Source: Kiloniellaceae bacterium (GTDB taxonomy: Bacteria > Pseudomonadota > Alphaproteobacteria > Kiloniellales > J153). From it: a stretch of DNA of 64,000 nt. The DNA lies in NCBI GenBank assembly GCA_021776115.1, contig JAJFGN010000085.1:1-64000 (forward strand), written 5' to 3'. Shown here piece after piece: positions 1,296 to 9,420 of the stretch (positions are counted from its first letter, which is position 1; every line of letters starts with the position of its first letter). A program made the position numbers and the translations under genes. The notes under the pieces were generated by a model. The model was given only the letters and a program-made list of their open reading frames with translations. It had not been told where the DNA came from and did no database searches.

Positions 1296-2137
1296 GAGGC
1301 GCCCCCGGGTGTGCCGAACGCGCCGGACGTCAACTTGGCGGCGAATCTCAGCAGGGCGCCGGCCAGTTCGTCCGGGCGCTCGGCGGGGATCATGTGACCG
1401 GCATCGGCCATGTCCACGCGCTCGGCTTTCGGCAGGCGGGCATAGAGTTCGTCCACATCGGCATAATTGAGAAAGACCCGGTCCTGCAGACCGGTCACGT
1501 TCAGTACCGGCACGTCGATTGCCTCGTAGGGAACATCCCAGTCCGCGGTGGCGCCGGATTTCAGCAGCATGTAGGCGCCGTCGCGTTCCGGAACCGGCGT
1601 GTAGGGGGCGTCGCGCAGGAAATCGCCGCGATTGCGCGCCAGCCACGCCTCGTTAAAGAGAAGCGGCACGAAGAGGTCGCGCAACAGCGCCAAACCGCCG
1701 ATCCGGGCGGCACGCACGAGGCCCTCGTTCAGCCAATCGAGGCGCACGCCTGCCTTGCGCAGGGTGTTGATCAGGACAAGGCCCTGCGCCGCCCCGGCGC
1801 CGCCGGCCAGGTGCGCCTTGAGGGCGAACAGGCCGCCGATCGAGAGGCCGACATGAACCGGCCGGGCCGGGCGCACATGCGCCAGCAGCGCCAGCGCGTC
1901 GGAGACGATGGTCGCCTCGCTGACGGAATCGAACGTGAAGGCGCTGTCGGCCTGGCCACGCAGGTTGAAGGCTAGCAGACCATGGCCGTGTCGTTGGAGC
2001 GCGGGGCCGACGCCGGCCGTCCACATGCTCTTGTCGCCGGTCAGCGCGTTGAAGCAAACGAAGGTGACTCCGCCGTCCGCCGGCGGCGCGTGGTCGTAGG
2101 CAAGGCTGTTGCCCGGTGAGAGGGGCAGGACGGGCAT
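1292..2137 (-). CDS. Alpha/beta hydrolase
   Basis: A 281-residue alpha/beta-hydrolase-fold protein. The nucleophile elbow is GLSIG (Ser about 99), the acid is probably the Asp in GLQDRVF and the base the His in DAGHM, so the catalytic triad looks complete. The ATG at 2137 gives the compact N-terminus MPVLPLSPGN; the ORF-track start adds about 38 residues without family character. Its stop overlaps the GTG of the EamA gene, so the two are one transcript. The substrate is unknown; esterase, lactonase and haloperoxidase-like relatives share this fold. Confidence 0.85.
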   Translation of the reverse strand: MPVLPLSPGNSLAYDHAPPADGGVTFVCFNALTGDKSMWTAGVGPALQRHGHGLLAFNLRGQADSAFTFDSVSEATIVSDALALLAHVRPARPVHVGLSIGGLFALKAHLAGGAGAAQGLVLINTLRKAGVRLDWLNEGLVRAARIGGLALLRDLFVPLLFNEAWLARNRGDFLRDAPYTPVPERDGAYMLLKSGATADWDVPYEAIDVPVLNVTGLQDRVFLNYADVDELYARLPKAERVDMADAGHMIPAERPDELAGALLRFAAKLTSGAFGTPGGAS

Positions 2138-2397
2138 GCACGGTCTCGCAATTTCGTAAAGTCCGCGGCGGACCGCCACTTGGCGAGAGATTCGCAGAGC
2201 CGGCCGCGCAACGCAATGACCATCCGCTACAGAGCATCCCTTTCGGGACACGCCAAGGATAAGCGACTTCGCTATTGCAGGCGCGCAATTGCATTAGCTT
2301 GTTGCGCCGCATGCCGTCACTCACCCGGTTCGGCGATCAAACCTGACCCGACTCCGTCCAGACTTTCATCCGGTGGAACACGCTTCGCTGCTCCACC

Positions 2398-2622
2398 CTA
2401 CGAGGCGCGCGCGCCCCTAACTCCCCGCCAAACACGCAGAATCGCAGCGGGGATGAGCAATAACGCACTGAAAATCACGCCCACCTCGTTCGGGCGGTTG
2501 CTGGGGTCGAGCACGCGTTCGGAACAGCTACAGCCTTCGGTTAGAATCGAACGTTTGTAGTAGCGTTCGAAGCTTTCCGGGCGGTGATTGCCGTAGCCGT
2601 GCTCTCGTGGGGTGCCGCGCAT
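2398..2622 (-). CDS. Small single-pass membrane protein, hypothetical
   Basis: A possible 74-residue protein with a polar N-terminal half containing CSC and one C-terminal hydrophobic helix (VGVIFSALLLIPAAILRVW) followed by a basic tail. The ATG at 2622 is preceded by GAGG at good spacing; the ORF-track TTG start lies just upstream. I do not recognise a family. It sits alone between the hydrolase and the LysR gene. A plausible small gene, but a chance ORF is not excluded. Confidence 0.4.
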   Translation of the reverse strand: MRGTPREHGYGNHRPESFERYYKRSILTEGCSCSERVLDPSNRPNEVGVIFSALLLIPAAILRVWRGVRGARAS

Positions 2623-2678
2623 CTCGTGCCTCAAGTTGGTTCCGGGTCAAGGTATCACACCGCGGGAAACGTGAGCCG

Positions 2679-3578
2679 TCAAAGTTCCAGGTAGCGGACG
2701 GTAGGGTCGACTACCCGGCCTTCGATCAGATCCCGTTGCGCCGCGATCTCCTTGCCAACGAAGTCCATGAAGGTGCGGATGCGGGCGCTCCGTTTTAGAT
2801 CCGGGTGGGTGAGCAGCCAGATGCCCAGATCGAACTCGCGGCTCGGCGGATACACTCTGACGAAGTCGGGGTCTTGCTCGACGCCGTAACAGGCCAGGTG
2901 GCCGACCCCTATGCCAGCGCGCACCGCCTCTACCATGCCCGATGCCGTGTTCATGCGGCACACGATGCGCGCGGCCGGGGCATGCCGGGCCATCCAACGG
3001 TCCATCATGCCGTTTTCCCAACACACCCACGGATAGCCGGTGAGCGGCACGTCCGGCCCCACCCGCTTCACCAAGCCGGGCGCGGCGTAAACGGGAAAAC
3101 TGTGCTCCGCCAGCTTGCGTCCGAGCAGAGTCTCGGGCGGGTTGTTGGTCGCCCGGACGATTACGTCCGCTTCGCGGCGCGACAGGCTGACCAAGTTCGG
3201 CCCCAACTCTATATCCAATCGAATTTCCGGGTAGGCCTGCAGAAAGCGCTGAAAGCAGGACATCAGATTTTTCCCGGTCGCATCGACGAGGGAAACCTGA
3301 ATGACGCCGCGAAGCTGGGCGTCCCGCCCCGCCAGCCGCAGGCTCGCGGTGTCGGCGTCTTCGCCCATGGACTGCGCGGTGGCGAAAAGCTCCTCACCCG
3401 CCGCCGTCAGGGCGATTCCTTCGCCCGTATGCTCAAATAGGGAAACGCCCAGTCCATCCTCGAAGGCGCGCATGCGGCGCGAGACAGTGCTGTGGGTCAT
3501 GGCAAGCTGCCGCGCCGCGCCGGAAAAAGAGCCCTCCGAGCCGACGGCCCGCAAGATCTTGAGGTCGTCCCATTTCAT
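2679..3578 (-). CDS. LysR-family transcriptional regulator
   Basis: A 299-residue LysR-type regulator. Residues 1-60 form the winged helix-turn-helix (MKWDDLKILRAV, then FSGAARQLAMTHSTVSRRMR) and the remainder is the periplasmic-binding-like effector domain. The start is the second of two close ATGs (3578; the other is at 3587); the ORF-track start adds about 30 residues upstream. It is divergent from the secreted protein gene at 3708, which is therefore the obvious candidate target. A CTGTG-N8-CACAG inverted repeat overlaps the start region. Confidence 0.88.
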   Translation of the reverse strand: MKWDDLKILRAVGSEGSFSGAARQLAMTHSTVSRRMRAFEDGLGVSLFEHTGEGIALTAAGEELFATAQSMGEDADTASLRLAGRDAQLRGVIQVSLVDATGKNLMSCFQRFLQAYPEIRLDIELGPNLVSLSRREADVIVRATNNPPETLLGRKLAEHSFPVYAAPGLVKRVGPDVPLTGYPWVCWENGMMDRWMARHAPAARIVCRMNTASGMVEAVRAGIGVGHLACYGVEQDPDFVRVYPPSREFDLGIWLLTHPDLKRSARIRTFMDFVGKEIAAQRDLIEGRVVDPTVRYLEL

Positions 3579-3579
3579 G

Positions 3580-3597
3580 CTGTGCATTTTCACACAG
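3580..3597. promoter_or_regulatory. Inverted repeat CTGTG-N8-CACAG near LysR start
   Basis: An 18-base dyad immediately upstream of the preferred lysR ATG and inside the divergent intergenic region. LysR proteins often bind such dyads and repress their own genes. Only the symmetry is seen; operator function is inferred. Confidence 0.3.
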
Positions 3598-3707
3598 TAG
3601 ACTATCGATTTTAGGCAATACCATAACATTTTCTCACAGGTAATTCTGTCGCCAGTTGGAGAAGCGGGCACGCGGTCCGCTCACCTTCATGGATCTGGGA
3701 GAAAGAC

Positions 3708-4409
3708 ATGAAACATCGGGTTCAGGCTCTCACCCTCGCGGCGGCTGTCCTTACCCTCGGCCTGGCCACAAGCGCCAAGGCGGAATTCTCGGGCGGCTAC
3801 GCCGTGCTCGGGCTTTTTAGCCTTGGCAACCAGGATAGTTACAGCGCCGCGGTGAGGACGTTGCGGGAAAATGCCGAAGGGCGCGGCTGCGCGCTGCAAG
3901 TCGAGGGGAATATCGTCAACGCAAACGGTAACCTGGACCTTCCTACGACCGATCGTTTCGTGCTCGTCACCTGCGCCTCGGCGCTACTGCACGACGCCGG
4001 GGGCCGGGCCGTATTCAAGGATTTGCGGTCGGCATCGAAAGGAAGCGTTCTTTTTGGGGGCGCGATGGTCGGGCGAAAAAACGAAGGTGCCTTTCCCCAG
4101 GACGGCGTGTACGTCTTTAAGGTCAGCGAATATACCAACCGCGATTCGGACAAGATGGACCGCGACCTGAAGTCCTTGAGCGCGGCGGCCGCCAAGCGCC
4201 CAAATGCCTACGCGACCCCGGCGACGATTGAGGTGAGCGAGGCCACAGGCTTCAGAACCCCCGACGAAGTCGTGGTCATTCACTATCCGACGGCGGAGGC
4301 GGGACCGGCCTTCCGAAAAGCCAACGAAGACATCATGAAGCGCATAGGTGCCTTCAACGACGAACACATTTCGGCTTATGTCTACCTCGGTGCGGTGCCG
4401 GCGAAATGA
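3708..4409 (+). CDS. Secreted protein of unknown function
   Basis: A 233-residue protein with a clear Sec signal peptide (MKHRVQALTLAAAVLTLGLA, probable cleavage after AKA near residue 26), so probably periplasmic. A purine-rich GGGAGAAAGAC precedes the ATG. Two Cys (GRGCAL and LVTCAS) might form a disulphide. No catalytic motif or known domain is recognised. It is divergent from a LysR regulator that may control it. Confidence 0.75.
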   Translation: MKHRVQALTLAAAVLTLGLATSAKAEFSGGYAVLGLFSLGNQDSYSAAVRTLRENAEGRGCALQVEGNIVNANGNLDLPTTDRFVLVTCASALLHDAGGRAVFKDLRSASKGSVLFGGAMVGRKNEGAFPQDGVYVFKVSEYTNRDSDKMDRDLKSLSAAAAKRPNAYATPATIEVSEATGFRTPDEVVVIHYPTAEAGPAFRKANEDIMKRIGAFNDEHISAYVYLGAVPAK

Positions 4410-4426
4410 GTGAGTTCTCGCACCGA

Positions 4427-4512
4427 CGCCTTAACCCCGTGCCCCCGTGAGATGGGATAGAGCGAGGTGACCAGCAGCAGCGCCATGACCACGTTGAAAA
4501 CGCGCACGGCCT
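4427..4512 (-). pseudogene. Truncated duplicate of the lysE 3' end
   Basis: About 85 bases nearly identical to the last part of the intact LysE gene at 6351-6439, in the same orientation. Read on the minus strand it gives AVRVFNVVMALLLVTSLYPI, matching the intact AVRVFNVVMALLLVASLYPI, then loses frame because one base is missing (GTGAGATGG against GTGACGATGG). It is a dead gene remnant on the far side of mscS from the intact copy. Confidence 0.85.
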
Positions 4513-4521
4513 GCATATTCC

Positions 4522-6195
4522 CTACGCGGATGGCGAGGCGAAGCGCTTGTCCGGCGGGACGATCTTAGGTTCCGAGGGATCGCCGACATAGGCGGGCGTC
4601 ATGATCTGGACGCCCTGCTCGTTGAAGATATCGAGAATGTTTTCGTGGAGCCGCGAATAAAGCCGCGGCATCGACGAGGGGTCGTCGGCATAGACGTTCA
4701 ACTCATACAGAACGCAAAAGTCCCCCAGGGTGCTTTTCAGGACAAAGGGGGGCGGGGTGCGAAGCAGCCCCGGTGTCCGTTCGGCGGCCTGCAGCAGCAT
4801 GGCCTCGACCTGCCGCCACGGCGCCTCGTACCCGATCCCCACGGTGGTGTGTAGAATCAGCCCTCGCTCCGTGGCGAGCGTGCTGTAGTTCACGACTTCG
4901 TTGTTCAGGATGACGGTGTTCGGGACCACGATCTCCTCGTTCTTTATCGAGCGCAGGTGGGTTTCCAGAAGCCGCATCTCGACCACATCGCCGACGGTAT
5001 CCTTAACCTTGATGCGGTCGCCGATCCGGAAGGCGCGCCGATAGGTCATCGTGTAGCCGGCGATCAAGTTGCCGATGATCGAGGTCGAGCCGAGCGACAG
5101 CACAAGGCCGAGGAATATCGAGACGCCCTTGAAGGCGGCGGAGTCCGATCCCGGAATGTAGGGATAGGCCACCACCACCGCGATGGCGATCGCGAATAGC
5201 CGGATGATCTTATAAGTGGGCAAGGCCCACTCCCGGTCAAAGCCTGCGAGCCTGACCCGCCCTAGGGCGACCGCGCCAAAGAACAGCCGTGTCATCTTGA
5301 GCAGGTATCGGACGATCAGCACCAGGATCAGAATAAAGATCAGGTTGGGCAGGGCCGCGAGCGTGGCCGTGCCAATCGTCTCGAGCGGCCCCAGGATCAG
5401 GCGCAGGAAGTGCAGCCCGAACGGCCGGGTCCAGGGATAAAGGCCGAGCACGTAATGCAGATAGCCTATGAGCAGCGCGAGGACGGCCAAAACGTGCACG
5501 GTGCCAATGGCGCCACGCAACGCCGACCACAGATCCTCCGCTTCCAGGATATGGAACGATTGAATCAGGACGTCCTTCATGCGCGCCTTGTAGCGCCGCT
5601 CGAGCACGGCATTGAGCCGCCTGAAGACCCAGGCAAGCACGACCAAGACGACGACCAAAGCCAGGCTCGCGCCACCGGCGTAGTAGCTGTTTCTCAACAG
5701 CACGGGTCGCGTGCGCTGGGTCCGGTAATCCTGGACCGCGCGTGCGATTCTGTTCTTAAAAGCCCCGGCGAGGGCGGTTCGCGTGATGCCTTCGGCGCGC
5801 GCATCGAGGTCGAAGACCGACATCACCAGGCGTTTGTCGGAGAGGATCTTGGTTTGATCTCTGAGATCGAACACCCGTAACGACTCGATAGAAACCGCGT
5901 TGTCCCTCGCGATCTCCTCTATCCGGGACATGATCGCTTGGGCACGCCGCCGGGCCTGATCCGCCGTACCGCCGCGAACGCTGAAGAGAACGTATCCGTC
6001 GATTTCGACCGAGGCCGCACTGTCCGAAGTCTCAACGGCTTCGTCCATAACGTTCGGCTGCAAAACTTGCGCGGCAGCGCCGATCGGCGCGATCAGCATC
6101 GCGAACGTCAGTAGGAAAATGCCGCGCCAAAAATGCGGCGGCGCTGCGCCACGCCAAGGCCGGGATTTTCCGGGTAAGGTCTTCCCTAGGTTCAT
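4522..6195 (-). CDS. MscS-family mechanosensitive ion channel
   Basis: A 557-residue inner-membrane channel homologue. Order: signal/anchor (about 20-42, ending GAAAQ), periplasmic region to about 155, several membrane helices, then the MscS beta domain with GDRIKVKDTVGDVVEM and the VPN motif (EEIVVPNTVILNNEVVNYS), and a cytoplasmic alpha/beta domain. MscS proteins release solutes on hypo-osmotic shock; the extra periplasmic domain places it among the larger relatives. It lies between the intact lysE gene and a decayed lysE 3' fragment, in the same orientation as both. Confidence 0.88.
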   Translation of the reverse strand: MNLGKTLPGKSRPWRGAAPPHFWRGIFLLTFAMLIAPIGAAAQVLQPNVMDEAVETSDSAASVEIDGYVLFSVRGGTADQARRRAQAIMSRIEEIARDNAVSIESLRVFDLRDQTKILSDKRLVMSVFDLDARAEGITRTALAGAFKNRIARAVQDYRTQRTRPVLLRNSYYAGGASLALVVVLVVLAWVFRRLNAVLERRYKARMKDVLIQSFHILEAEDLWSALRGAIGTVHVLAVLALLIGYLHYVLGLYPWTRPFGLHFLRLILGPLETIGTATLAALPNLIFILILVLIVRYLLKMTRLFFGAVALGRVRLAGFDREWALPTYKIIRLFAIAIAVVVAYPYIPGSDSAAFKGVSIFLGLVLSLGSTSIIGNLIAGYTMTYRRAFRIGDRIKVKDTVGDVVEMRLLETHLRSIKNEEIVVPNTVILNNEVVNYSTLATERGLILHTTVGIGYEAPWRQVEAMLLQAAERTPGLLRTPPPFVLKSTLGDFCVLYELNVYADDPSSMPRLYSRLHENILDIFNEQGVQIMTPAYVGDPSEPKIVPPDKRFASPSA

Positions 6196-6355
6196 AATCG
6201 TCCGTCTCGGTCTTGCCGGAGGCGGCGCCTGCTATCGAGAACTAAGCTCGATACGGCGTTGCTGTGTGCAGGACCATTCTTATAATCCACATAGATAATG
6301 TGGTTATTTTCGCCGATTTGCCAAACAGCTTTTTGCGCGGCGCGGCGTATGCGCC

Positions 6356-6982
6356 CTAACCCCATGCCCCCGTGACGATGGGATAGAGCGAGGCGACCAG
6401 CAGCAGCGCCATGACCACGTTGAAAACGCGCACGGCCTTGGCGTTCTTGACCACGCGCTGCAAGGCGGTACCGAAGCCAACCCAGGTTGTGCCCGAGGCT
6501 ATGCCGAAGCTGCCGAACAGCCCCGCGATCACGATGACATTGAAAGGAAAGACCGCGACCGTGGCATAGGTCGAGATCGCGGCGAGCATCATGACCCAGG
6601 CCTTGGGGTTGACCCATTGAAAGGCGGCGGCCTGAAGGAAGGTAATGGGCTTTGCTTGGCGGCGGGCTTGCGCTTCGCCGTCCCGCGCGACCGGGCCCGA
6701 GGTCGCGATCGCCCAAGCCAAGTACAAGAGGTACGCCGCGCCGACGTACTTCAACACGGTGTAGAGCACCGGATAAGCCGTGACCACGGCGCCCAGGCCC
6801 AGCCCCACCGCCAGCACCATGGCCCCAAAGCCCAGCGCCACCCCGAAGATGTGCGGCACCGCGCGGCGAAACCCATAGTTCAGGCCCGTTGTCATCAACA
6901 TGATGTTATTCGGCCCCGGCGTGAACAGGGTCACGACGCAGAAGGCTACAAGCGCGGCCAGTAAATCGATTTGGGCAATCAT
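6356..6982 (-). CDS. LysE/RhtB-family amino-acid exporter
   Basis: A 208-residue membrane protein with the family signature LFTPGPNNIMLM near the N-terminus and five to six hydrophobic helices. The family exports amino acids or their analogues through the inner membrane. The ATG at 6982 (MIAQIDLLAAL) is preferred to the TTG two codons upstream on the ORF track. The last 85 bases of this gene are duplicated beyond mscS at 4427-4512. The substrate cannot be told from sequence. Confidence 0.87.
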   Translation of the reverse strand: MIAQIDLLAALVAFCVVTLFTPGPNNIMLMTTGLNYGFRRAVPHIFGVALGFGAMVLAVGLGLGAVVTAYPVLYTVLKYVGAAYLLYLAWAIATSGPVARDGEAQARRQAKPITFLQAAAFQWVNPKAWVMMLAAISTYATVAVFPFNVIVIAGLFGSFGIASGTTWVGFGTALQRVVKNAKAVRVFNVVMALLLVASLYPIVTGAWG

Positions 6983-7089
6983 GAGCAAATACGGCTAGAT
7001 CGTTGGAAGGGCGCCAAGATGAGATAACCGCGGTCCGAGCGCAACATCTTCTAGACAATCGCACTTACCGCCGCGGCTTGCCGCCGGCA

Positions 7090-7262
7090 ATATCCACAGC
7101 CTTTCCTTCGCGCGGGGACCGGGGACGCGTTAGGCTGGAGGCGAACGACGACACAACAAAGGAGCGAGGCCCCATGACACTTTCCGGCCGCCTTTTCCGA
7201 CCGCGCTTTGGGCCGCCGGAGGGTGTGCTGTAAATTCCCTGTTCTCAGGGAATAACAGGGAA
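7090..7262 (+). repeat. Dispersed repeat element, copy A
   Basis: A non-coding block starting at ATATCCACAGCCTTT and ending in a 28-base sequence built on TTCCCTGTTCTCAGGGAA. A diverged copy lies in reverse orientation at 31356-31513; the terminal 28 bases are exactly shared while the middle is only partly conserved. The shadow translations of both copies share RKGCGY and CC[IV]VVR, which reflects the DNA repeat and not a protein. It occupies most of the lysE-ridA gap; no other feature is seen there. Confidence 0.75.
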
Positions 7263-7358
7263 AGCGATTCCACCCCGCCTTGCCTGGTCCCGGCGGCCCG
7301 GATATCTTCCGCCGCTGCAAGAGAACGGACCAACAGACAACACGCGGGAGCAACGACT

Positions 7359-7826
7359 ATGGCGGGAAAGATCGACGCACGGCTGAAAGAACTCGGCATC
7401 GAGATCGCGGAGGCGGCGGCGCCGGTCGCCAACTACGTCGGCTATGTGCAGACCGGCAACCTGGTCTTCGTGTCCGGTCAGGTCACGGTCGAGGGCGGCC
7501 AGTTCAAATACAAGGGCAAGCTGGGCGCGGAAATCTCGGTCGAAGAGGGCCAAGCCGCCGCACGGCTGTGCGCGACCAACATCATCGCCCAGTTGAAGTC
7601 GGCCTGCGGCGGCGATCTGGACCGGGTCCAGCGGATCGTGAAGCTGGGCGGTTTCGTCAATTCGGCCCCCGACTTCACCGACCAGCCCAAGGTAATCAAC
7701 GGCGCGTCGGACCTGATGGTCGAGGTGTTCGGCGATAAGGGCAAGCACGCCCGCGCCGCCGTCTCGGCCGGCTCCCTGCCCATGGGGGTCGCGGTCGAGG
7801 TCGACGCGGTTGTGGAGATTTCCTGA
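7359..7826 (+). CDS. RidA/YjgF-family protein
   Basis: A 155-residue member of the RidA superfamily, which hydrolyses reactive enamine/imine intermediates from PLP enzymes. The chain fits the longer YjgF-like subgroup: VFVSGQVTVEGG at the N-terminal strand and the conserved Arg in GKHARAAVSAGSLPMG near the C-terminus, the residue that binds the carboxylate in active RidA. GGGAGCAACGACT precedes the ATG. It lies upstream of a glutamine-synthetase-like gene in the same direction but separated by a palindromic repeat. Confidence 0.88.
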   Translation: MAGKIDARLKELGIEIAEAAAPVANYVGYVQTGNLVFVSGQVTVEGGQFKYKGKLGAEISVEEGQAAARLCATNIIAQLKSACGGDLDRVQRIVKLGGFVNSAPDFTDQPKVINGASDLMVEVFGDKGKHARAAVSAGSLPMGVAVEVDAVVEIS

Positions 7827-7852
7827 CGCCGGCGATCATGCAACACGCGCCG

Positions 7853-7954
7853 TCACCCCCACCCCGGCCCTCCCCCATCGAGGGGGAGGGAGAAGAAGTG
7901 CGGGCCGGCCCTATATTCCCTCCCCCCTTGAGGGGGAGGGTTAGGGTGGGGGGT
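7853..7954. repeat. Paired GC-rich hairpins between ridA and the GS-like gene
   Basis: Two successive hairpins, each CCCTCCCCC, a 5-base loop, then GGGGGAGGG, inside a larger inverted repeat with CACCCC/GGGGTG flanks. It resembles the element at 135-172. It probably acts as a transcript-stabilising or attenuating structure downstream of ridA. Confidence 0.7.
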
Positions 7955-8043
7955 ATCGCGGTCGTTCGCTTGAGCTTCACCTTGGGCCTAGCCGGCCCGC
8001 CCCGCTTGCCGTTTCTTAACCGGGCCGTGCGCCAAATGAGTCC

Positions 8044-9420
8044 ATGACCAAACCGCCCGCCAAGCCGTCACGCGAAGTGGCCCGATTCCTGGCCGCCCAC
8101 CCGGACCTTGTCTATCTGGATACCATCTTCGCCGACCTGTCCGGCGTGGTGCGCGGCAAGCGCTACCCGATCGCGCAGCTTGAGAAGATCGTGGCCGACG
8201 GCCTGGCGTTTCCAGGCTCGGTGTTCCTGCTCGATACCATGGGCCACAGCCACGACCCGGCGGGGCTAGGCTTCAGCGACGGCGACCCGGATCGAATCGC
8301 GAAGGTCGTCCCCGGCACCCTCAAGCCAGCGCCCTGGTCGGACCCGCCCTCTTGTCAGGCCCTGATCACCCTGGTACGCAGCGACGGTGCGCCGCATGAG
8401 TTCGAGCCGCGCAACGTCCTCGCCGCCCAGGTCGCGCGCCTGGCCGAGCTGAACTTGAGACCCGTGGTCGCCTTCGAGCTCGAGTTTTACCTGATCGACC
8501 CGGCGCGGACCGACACCGGCGCGCCGCAGCCGCCACTCTCCCCCGTGACCGGGCAGCGCGAGAGCGGGACCCAGGTTTACGGCATGGTCGAGGTCGATGC
8601 TTACGCCGCGTTGCTCGACGAAATTACCCGCGCCTGCGCGGCCCAGGACATCGTGACCGGCGCGGTCACGGCGGAATACGCGCCCGGGCAATTCGAGATC
8701 AACCTGCAGCACGTGGACGATCCCATGCGGGCCGCCGACGAATGCGTCATGTTCAAGCGCGCGGTCAAGGGCGTGGCGCGCCGCCACGGCTACCAGGTGA
8801 CCTTCATGCCCAAGCCTTACCTGGACGCCGCCGGCAGCGGCCTGCACCTGCACGTCAGCCTGCTGGATGCGCGCGGCCGCAACGTCTTCGACGGCGGCAA
8901 GGACCTTGCCAGCCCGGCCCTGAGACATGCCATCGCCGGGATCCTGGATATCATGCCCGAATCGATGGCCATCCTGGCGCCGAACGTAAATTCCTTCCGG
9001 CGCTACGTGCCCGACATATTCGTGCCGATCCGGCGCTGCTGGGGCTTCGAAAACCGCTCGGTCGCCTTGCGGGTGCCGCTCGGGCCCGGCAACGCGCGGC
9101 GGATCGAACATCGCATGGCCGGCGCCGACGCCAACCCCTATCTGGCGCTCGCCACCGCGCTGGCCGGGATTCACCACGGCATCGCCGGCGAGATGGAGCC
9201 GCCACCCCCGTCGGAGGGCAACGCGGGCTTCGCCTACGACGAAGACCTGCCCTTCCGGGCCCGCCGCGCGCTGGAGCGCCTGGCCGGATCGGAGGTTTTG
9301 GCCGCATATTTCGGGCCCAAATACATCGAGGCCTACACCGCCTGTAAGCTGGCCGAACTCGAAACCTTCGAGAATGTGATCAGCCCCAAGGAATACGCCT
9401 GGTATCTACAGGCGGAGTAG
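8044..9420 (+). CDS. Glutamine synthetase family protein (PuuA-like)
   Basis: A 458-residue homologue of glutamine synthetase of the gamma-glutamylpolyamine synthetase type. The GS beta-grasp domain is at the N-terminus (YLDTIFADLSGVVRGK), the catalytic domain carries FELEFYLID and the metal/ammonia-site motif GSGLHLHVSL, with RRIEHRMAGADANPYLALA near the C-terminus. These enzymes join glutamate to amines using ATP. No puuB, puuC or puuD homologue is adjacent, so the amine is unknown. A second, divergent GS-like gene is at 51774-53141. Confidence 0.87.
   Translation: MTKPPAKPSREVARFLAAHPDLVYLDTIFADLSGVVRGKRYPIAQLEKIVADGLAFPGSVFLLDTMGHSHDPAGLGFSDGDPDRIAKVVPGTLKPAPWSDPPSCQALITLVRSDGAPHEFEPRNVLAAQVARLAELNLRPVVAFELEFYLIDPARTDTGAPQPPLSPVTGQRESGTQVYGMVEVDAYAALLDEITRACAAQDIVTGAVTAEYAPGQFEINLQHVDDPMRAADECVMFKRAVKGVARRHGYQVTFMPKPYLDAAGSGLHLHVSLLDARGRNVFDGGKDLASPALRHAIAGILDIMPESMAILAPNVNSFRRYVPDIFVPIRRCWGFENRSVALRVPLGPGNARRIEHRMAGADANPYLALATALAGIHHGIAGEMEPPPPSEGNAGFAYDEDLPFRARRALERLAGSEVLAAYFGPKYIEAYTACKLAELETFENVISPKEYAWYLQAE

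Follow-up and report, generated by a model that had tools for sequence, protein, structure and literature searches.

A decayed copy of the lysE 3′ end beside mscS in a Kiloniellaceae genome, probably left by local duplication and unequal loss

The 64-kb window analysed here, a single stretch of one contig of a Kiloniellaceae metagenome-assembled genome (G000), contains an mscS-family gene with an intact lysE gene on one side and, on the other, a short stretch that repeats the end of lysE. How did a fragment of lysE come to lie beyond its neighbour, and does it record a duplication of the locus or an insertion into it? The features concerned, by position in the window, are as follows.

2398–2634, minus strand: smORF, encoding a probable small membrane protein of 74–78 aa (72% amino acid identity to L041 9103–9297 of G003, a genome of the same genus)
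2679–3671, minus strand: LysR-type regulator gene (PF00126/PF03466), divergent partner of orf233
3708–4409, plus strand: orf233, convergent with the dead copy and absent from other members of the genus
4427–4512, minus strand: dead lysE 3′ end (lysE′), 86 nt, defined by local alignment and BLASTN
4513–4521: probable duplication junction, where the mscS 3′ end meets the lysE interior; lysE homology ends at 4512
4522–6195, minus strand: intact mscS-family mechanosensitive channel gene between the copies, 557 aa (open reading frame with PF00924 and PF21082)
6196–6343, minus strand: mscS upstream region, conserved with G003, containing promoter-like TTGGCA-18-CATTAT and ending 8 nt before the lysE repeat copy
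6344–6351: probable deletion junction; G003 holds 928 nt (smORF and orf161) between the corresponding points
6352–6438, minus strand: live copy of the repeat, the lysE 3′ end plus 4 nt beyond its stop codon, 87 nt, defined by local alignment and BLASTN
6356–6988, minus strand: intact gene for a LysE-family exporter of 210 aa, from which the repeat derives (open reading frame; PF01810, E=1e-18)

The repeat and the genes it flanks

The preliminary description placed mscS between lysE and a dead, directly oriented copy of the lysE end that lacks one base, and the alignment bears this out in each respect. Positions 4427–4512 align to 6352–6438 in the same orientation with 83 of 87 columns identical (95.4%; three substitutions and one gap), a longest shared exact run of 44 nt and E = 3.5e-35, the runner-up in a BLASTN search of the whole window being a 20-mer (E = 0.013). 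A nucleotide search of the genome finds no third copy of the lysE end, only those at 4427 and 6352. The homology spans from 4 nt past the stop codon to ~80–82 nt inside lysE and in the dead copy breaks off sharply 9 nt beyond the mscS stop codon; beyond 4512 there is no further lysE homology at the DNA level (p=0.35). A tblastn extension of the dead copy in the protein frame (64.9% over 37 aa, 4552–4442) lacks DNA support and was discounted as chance.

Where the live copy reads GTGACGATGGG the dead copy reads GTGA-GATGGG, and G003 carries GACGATGGG at the site of the missing base. With this 1-base deletion shifting its frame, and with no start codon, lysE′ is dead and not a gene. The dead copy and G003 both encode LVTSLYPI and the live lysE encodes LVASLYPI, so that the dead copy keeps the G003 state at a position where the live gene has changed; the live gene is therefore not simply the unchanged parent, and the G003 base in the dead copy is as expected of a true sister copy. 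The lysE-end stretch is only 85% identical to G003, against three substitutions in 86 nt between the window copies, and because the copies are so much closer to each other than to G003 the duplication appears to postdate the divergence of the two lineages, barring a conversion event. No Rfam families were matched at 2000–7600, no terminator-like site was found inside the dead copy, and the repeat shows no sign of function.

The divergence of the copies also bears on whether the repeat is an artefact of assembly. The assembly comprises 85 contigs and its contamination is estimated at about 2.7%, but the copies differ at four positions, are exactly alike over no more than the run given above and have separate flanks, and the hydrolase–ridA interval that holds them both is bounded by the same genes in another genome (G001), making such an artefact highly improbable.

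The lysE product belongs to the LysE translocator family (PF01810 above its cut-off) and is 77% identical in amino acid sequence to that of G003; its best NCBIfam match, a cysteine/O-acetylserine transporter, falls below that model's cut-off. The mscS product is a member of the MscS family, with beta and C-terminal MscS domains (PF00924, PF21082) exceeding the Pfam cut-offs, and reaches no NCBIfam equivalog cut-off. Judged from their sequences, both genes are probably functional. mscS is patchily distributed, its nearest relatives after that of G003 (80%) being in Geobacteraceae (54%) and other Desulfobacterota-type MAGs, and for this reason was probably acquired horizontally by this genus; in Geobacteraceae and the other mscS relatives none of lysE, smORF or ridA adjoins it. 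Within its upstream region, positions 6281–6330 contain a palindrome (CCACATTATCTATGTGG and AAAATAACCA) that is partly conserved in G003 and is possibly a promoter or operator of mscS.

The window contains other repeats. At 7853–7955 lies a dispersed palindromic repeat of ~100 bp, present dozens of times in G000, G001, G002 and G005. Positions 1–73 and 175–242 hold a contig-start repeat with 94–100% identical copies, several of them at other contig ends of G000, and a second dispersed repeat, GACCCGCGGGTCAAGCCCGCGGGTGACA.

Gene order at the locus in related genomes

Sixty-three genomes of the order were compared; among them, G000 and G003 alone have strong smORF matches and close, full-length mscS matches, and G003 is the only relative found with this locus. 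There, in the direction of transcription, lysE (L041 9310–9924) is followed 12 nt downstream by smORF (9082–9297, 71 aa), then by orf161 (8390–8875) and mscS (6499–8256), with one lysE end only and no dead copy. In the window the order is lysE, mscS, the dead lysE end, orf233 and the LysR gene, smORF, an alpha/beta hydrolase-like ORF and an EamA-like ORF. The other flank of lysE is ridA and a glutamine synthetase gene in both genomes; in a glutamine synthetase tree of the genus the position of G000 is unreliable (support 0.04). The counterparts of window positions 6343 and 6351 are L041 8376 and 9305, the 928 nt with smORF and orf161 being missing between mscS and lysE of the window; the smORF homologue lies beyond the dead copy, and orf161 is absent from the window. 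Since smORF is found beyond the dead end here and directly behind lysE in G003, the dead end and smORF look like a second lysE–smORF pair, split by an insertion.

Proteins of the smORF type are small and uncharacterised, share the motif GYGxHRxESFxRYYxRxxxxEGCxCxExxL (window 2398–2634, L041 9082–9297, L103 765–1019 and L104 about 3491–3628, all on the minus strand) and have no NCBIfam match; one adjoins lysE in G003 and another a threonine synthase-like gene in G050. The orf233 product looks secreted and has no Pfam or NCBIfam match. The divergent LysR–orf233 pair is present in G005, G028, G039, G047, G053 and G054, G050 has a fragmentary match to it, and the DNA of other members of the genus lacks it; on both counts the best reading is that it inserted later between lysE′ and smORF.

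In G001 a flavin oxidoreductase gene (OYE-type, 679 aa) is flanked by ridA and, at its other end, by the same hydrolase and EamA-like genes as in the window, and in G002 that oxidoreductase gene lies between a ribonucleotide reductase gene (nrdJ) and ridA; in G003 the ribonucleotide reductase gene is farther out on the left side. Neither G001 nor G002 has lysE, smORF or this mscS at the corresponding spot, and the flavin oxidoreductase is unrelated. From these differences in content among G001/G002, G003 and the window, the spot between the hydrolase gene (or nrdJ) and ridA can be recognised as a site of gene-content replacement. Near the same variable spot in G003, L041 3705–4957 is a REP-associated transposase-like gene between direct repeats, and window positions 2175–2393 weakly match the repeat region downstream of it.

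Among the relatives, whose comparison the preliminary description had suggested, none has, at this locus, a pair of full lysE genes with separate origins. Two tandem lysE-family genes, 53% and 52% identical to lysE of the window, are present in another genus of the family (G005, L105 4717–6046). No lysE lies beside the distant mscS relatives in G010 and G043. No genome of the 63 has lysE–smORF without mscS, and hence none offers an empty mscS insertion site.

Origin of the dead copy

The dead lysE end is rather likely a scar left where a segment of the locus duplicated in tandem and the two copies then decayed unequally, which gave a new gene order. The reading starts from what is directly observed, namely the repeat, its decay, the gene orders in G000 and G003 and the lack of orf161 in the window; the polarity of the change, the order of events and the junction mechanism are as we infer them. 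An ancestor with the order lysE–smORF–orf161–mscS, as still in G003, would have duplicated a roughly 3-kb unit reaching from ~80 nt before the lysE stop codon to the mscS 3′ end, giving lysE–smORF1–orf161(1)–mscS1–lysE′–smORF2–orf161(2)–mscS2, in which the end of mscS1 would be joined to the lysE interior and lysE′ would be the start of the second unit. Deletion of smORF1 and orf161 from the first unit, loss of orf161 and mscS from the second and entry of the LysR/orf233 pair between lysE′ and smORF2 would leave lysE–mscS1–lysE′–(LysR/orf233)–smORF2. On this scheme lysE′ would never have been a complete gene and would simply drift. The tandem duplication of mscS–lysE with later decay put forward in the preliminary description finds support in part, the G003 comparison favouring duplication; its unit is altered to lysE 3′ end–smORF–(probably orf161)–mscS, and the gene order has changed.

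Several observations accord with this history. The copy is a decayed, same-orientation partial copy of a neighbouring gene; G003 has single copies in the would-be pre-duplication order, the ancestral order being taken from that one genome; and lysE1, (mscS1), lysE2′ and smORF2 form an ordered subset of two tandem units, the LysR/orf233 insertion aside. The C-terminus of the window mscS is 16 codons shorter than that of G003 and also falls short of most relatives in a C-terminal alignment, as if trimmed at the junction, and BLASTN homology to the G003 gene stops at 4532. The junction may have formed by illegitimate recombination at short similarity: the end of the G003 mscS is weakly similar to lysE (shuffle p=0.02, in one comparison of sequences ~20% diverged), and this suggests, tentatively, a similarity that could have served the joining.

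Other observations count against it. Remnants of smORF1, orf161 and mscS2 are absent from the non-coding gaps, a search of which with mscS, orf161 and smORF matched only the mscS upstream region, the continuation of the mscS end and dispersed repeats; this weakens the completeness of the proof but does not exclude duplication and loss, since remnants can vanish. The model needs several losses plus one insertion, and its polarity is not fixed, the alternative order occurring in one genome only. The repeat end 4 nt past the lysE stop codon also coincides with the end of the deletion, which an insertion explains without extra cost.

One such insertion would be of the Campbell type, in which a DNA circle bearing the lysE 3′ end and mscS, excised from a sister chromosome or from a relative, recombined at the 86-bp lysE end of a genome that had no mscS here. 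The final structure would be the same, and a single step accounts for the flanking direct repeats, for a lysE that is hybrid yet intact and for the repeat boundary that is shared; the spot beside ridA is replacement-prone, with its oxidoreductase in G001/G002 and other genes in G003. However, it presupposes a source with mscS and the lysE interior already fused, and thus a duplication or circle junction in any case; mscS occupies the same locus in G003, and none of the 63 genomes of the order is the mscS-free lysE–smORF genome that it supposes. We regard it as unlikely.

A gene 3′ end that is directly repeated, with the target gene itself left intact, in general recalls integrative elements, and the 86-bp copies could be read as attL and attR of a small mscS-bearing element that an integrase aimed at the lysE 3′ end and that restored that end. 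mscS is all that lies between them, genes for a recombinase or a transposase being absent; the genome has no further place with the repeat; and no such element was found in relatives, mscS being resident at the G003 locus without such repeats. It is a very doubtful reading. Insertion by a transposon with target duplication is unlikely too: the duplication measures 86–87 bp with no transposase, where a short target duplication and terminal inverted repeats with a transposase would be expected. Target duplications made by transposases fall far short of 86 bp. The preliminary alternative of an insertion that duplicated its target is accordingly less likely, given the length of the repeat, the lack of an integrase or transposase between the copies and the presence of mscS in the G003 locus.

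The orf233 stop codon and the dead end are 17 nt apart, so that insertion and duplication share a neighbourhood and could belong to a single complex rearrangement, such as replication template switching at the entry of LysR/orf233, that moved mscS and copied the lysE end together. Neither an intermediate nor characteristic junction microhomology has been demonstrated, and the orf233-side flank has no similarity to the G003 lysE–smORF spacer (p=0.46); this is a distinctly improbable course.

Relation to known modes of gene-order change

Tandem duplication with unequal loss resembles the duplication–random loss described for mitochondrial gene orders, in which different losses from each copy of a tandem duplication give a new order (PMC3283314, PMC5745709). 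The likeness lies in the new order after reciprocal loss and in pseudogene remnants at predictable places; that process is described for animal mitochondria, whereas the unit here is a roughly 3-kb piece of bacterial chromosome. The SNAP hypothesis of bacterial gene-order change (Brandis and Hughes 2020; PMC7055797) likewise starts from a duplication, after which each copy sheds its non-selected genes and the order is rearranged. SNAP involves tens to hundreds of genes between direct repeats, kept by selection (PMC7055797), whereas here a few genes are involved, the junction carries no long repeat and nothing points to selection. Elements that insert at a gene 3′ end and duplicate or restore it, such as integrase-type genomic islands, are alike in that the DNA between is bordered by a directly repeated gene end, but the window has no recombinase gene and the enclosed mscS is resident in a sister lineage.

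The locus is not a new kind of system; it shows ordinary decay of a bacterial genome, with a scar that can be read unusually well. What mscS and lysE do is not touched by this reading, and both genes look intact. The chances seem even that it records a small-scale bacterial gene-order change through tandem duplication and reciprocal loss, with the scar kept, at a content-swapping site of one genus. If so, it would be a compact and readable change of bacterial gene order, consisting of one duplication, reciprocal loss and a surviving scar, and would provide a test case for duplication–loss models, which are usually inferred without intermediates.
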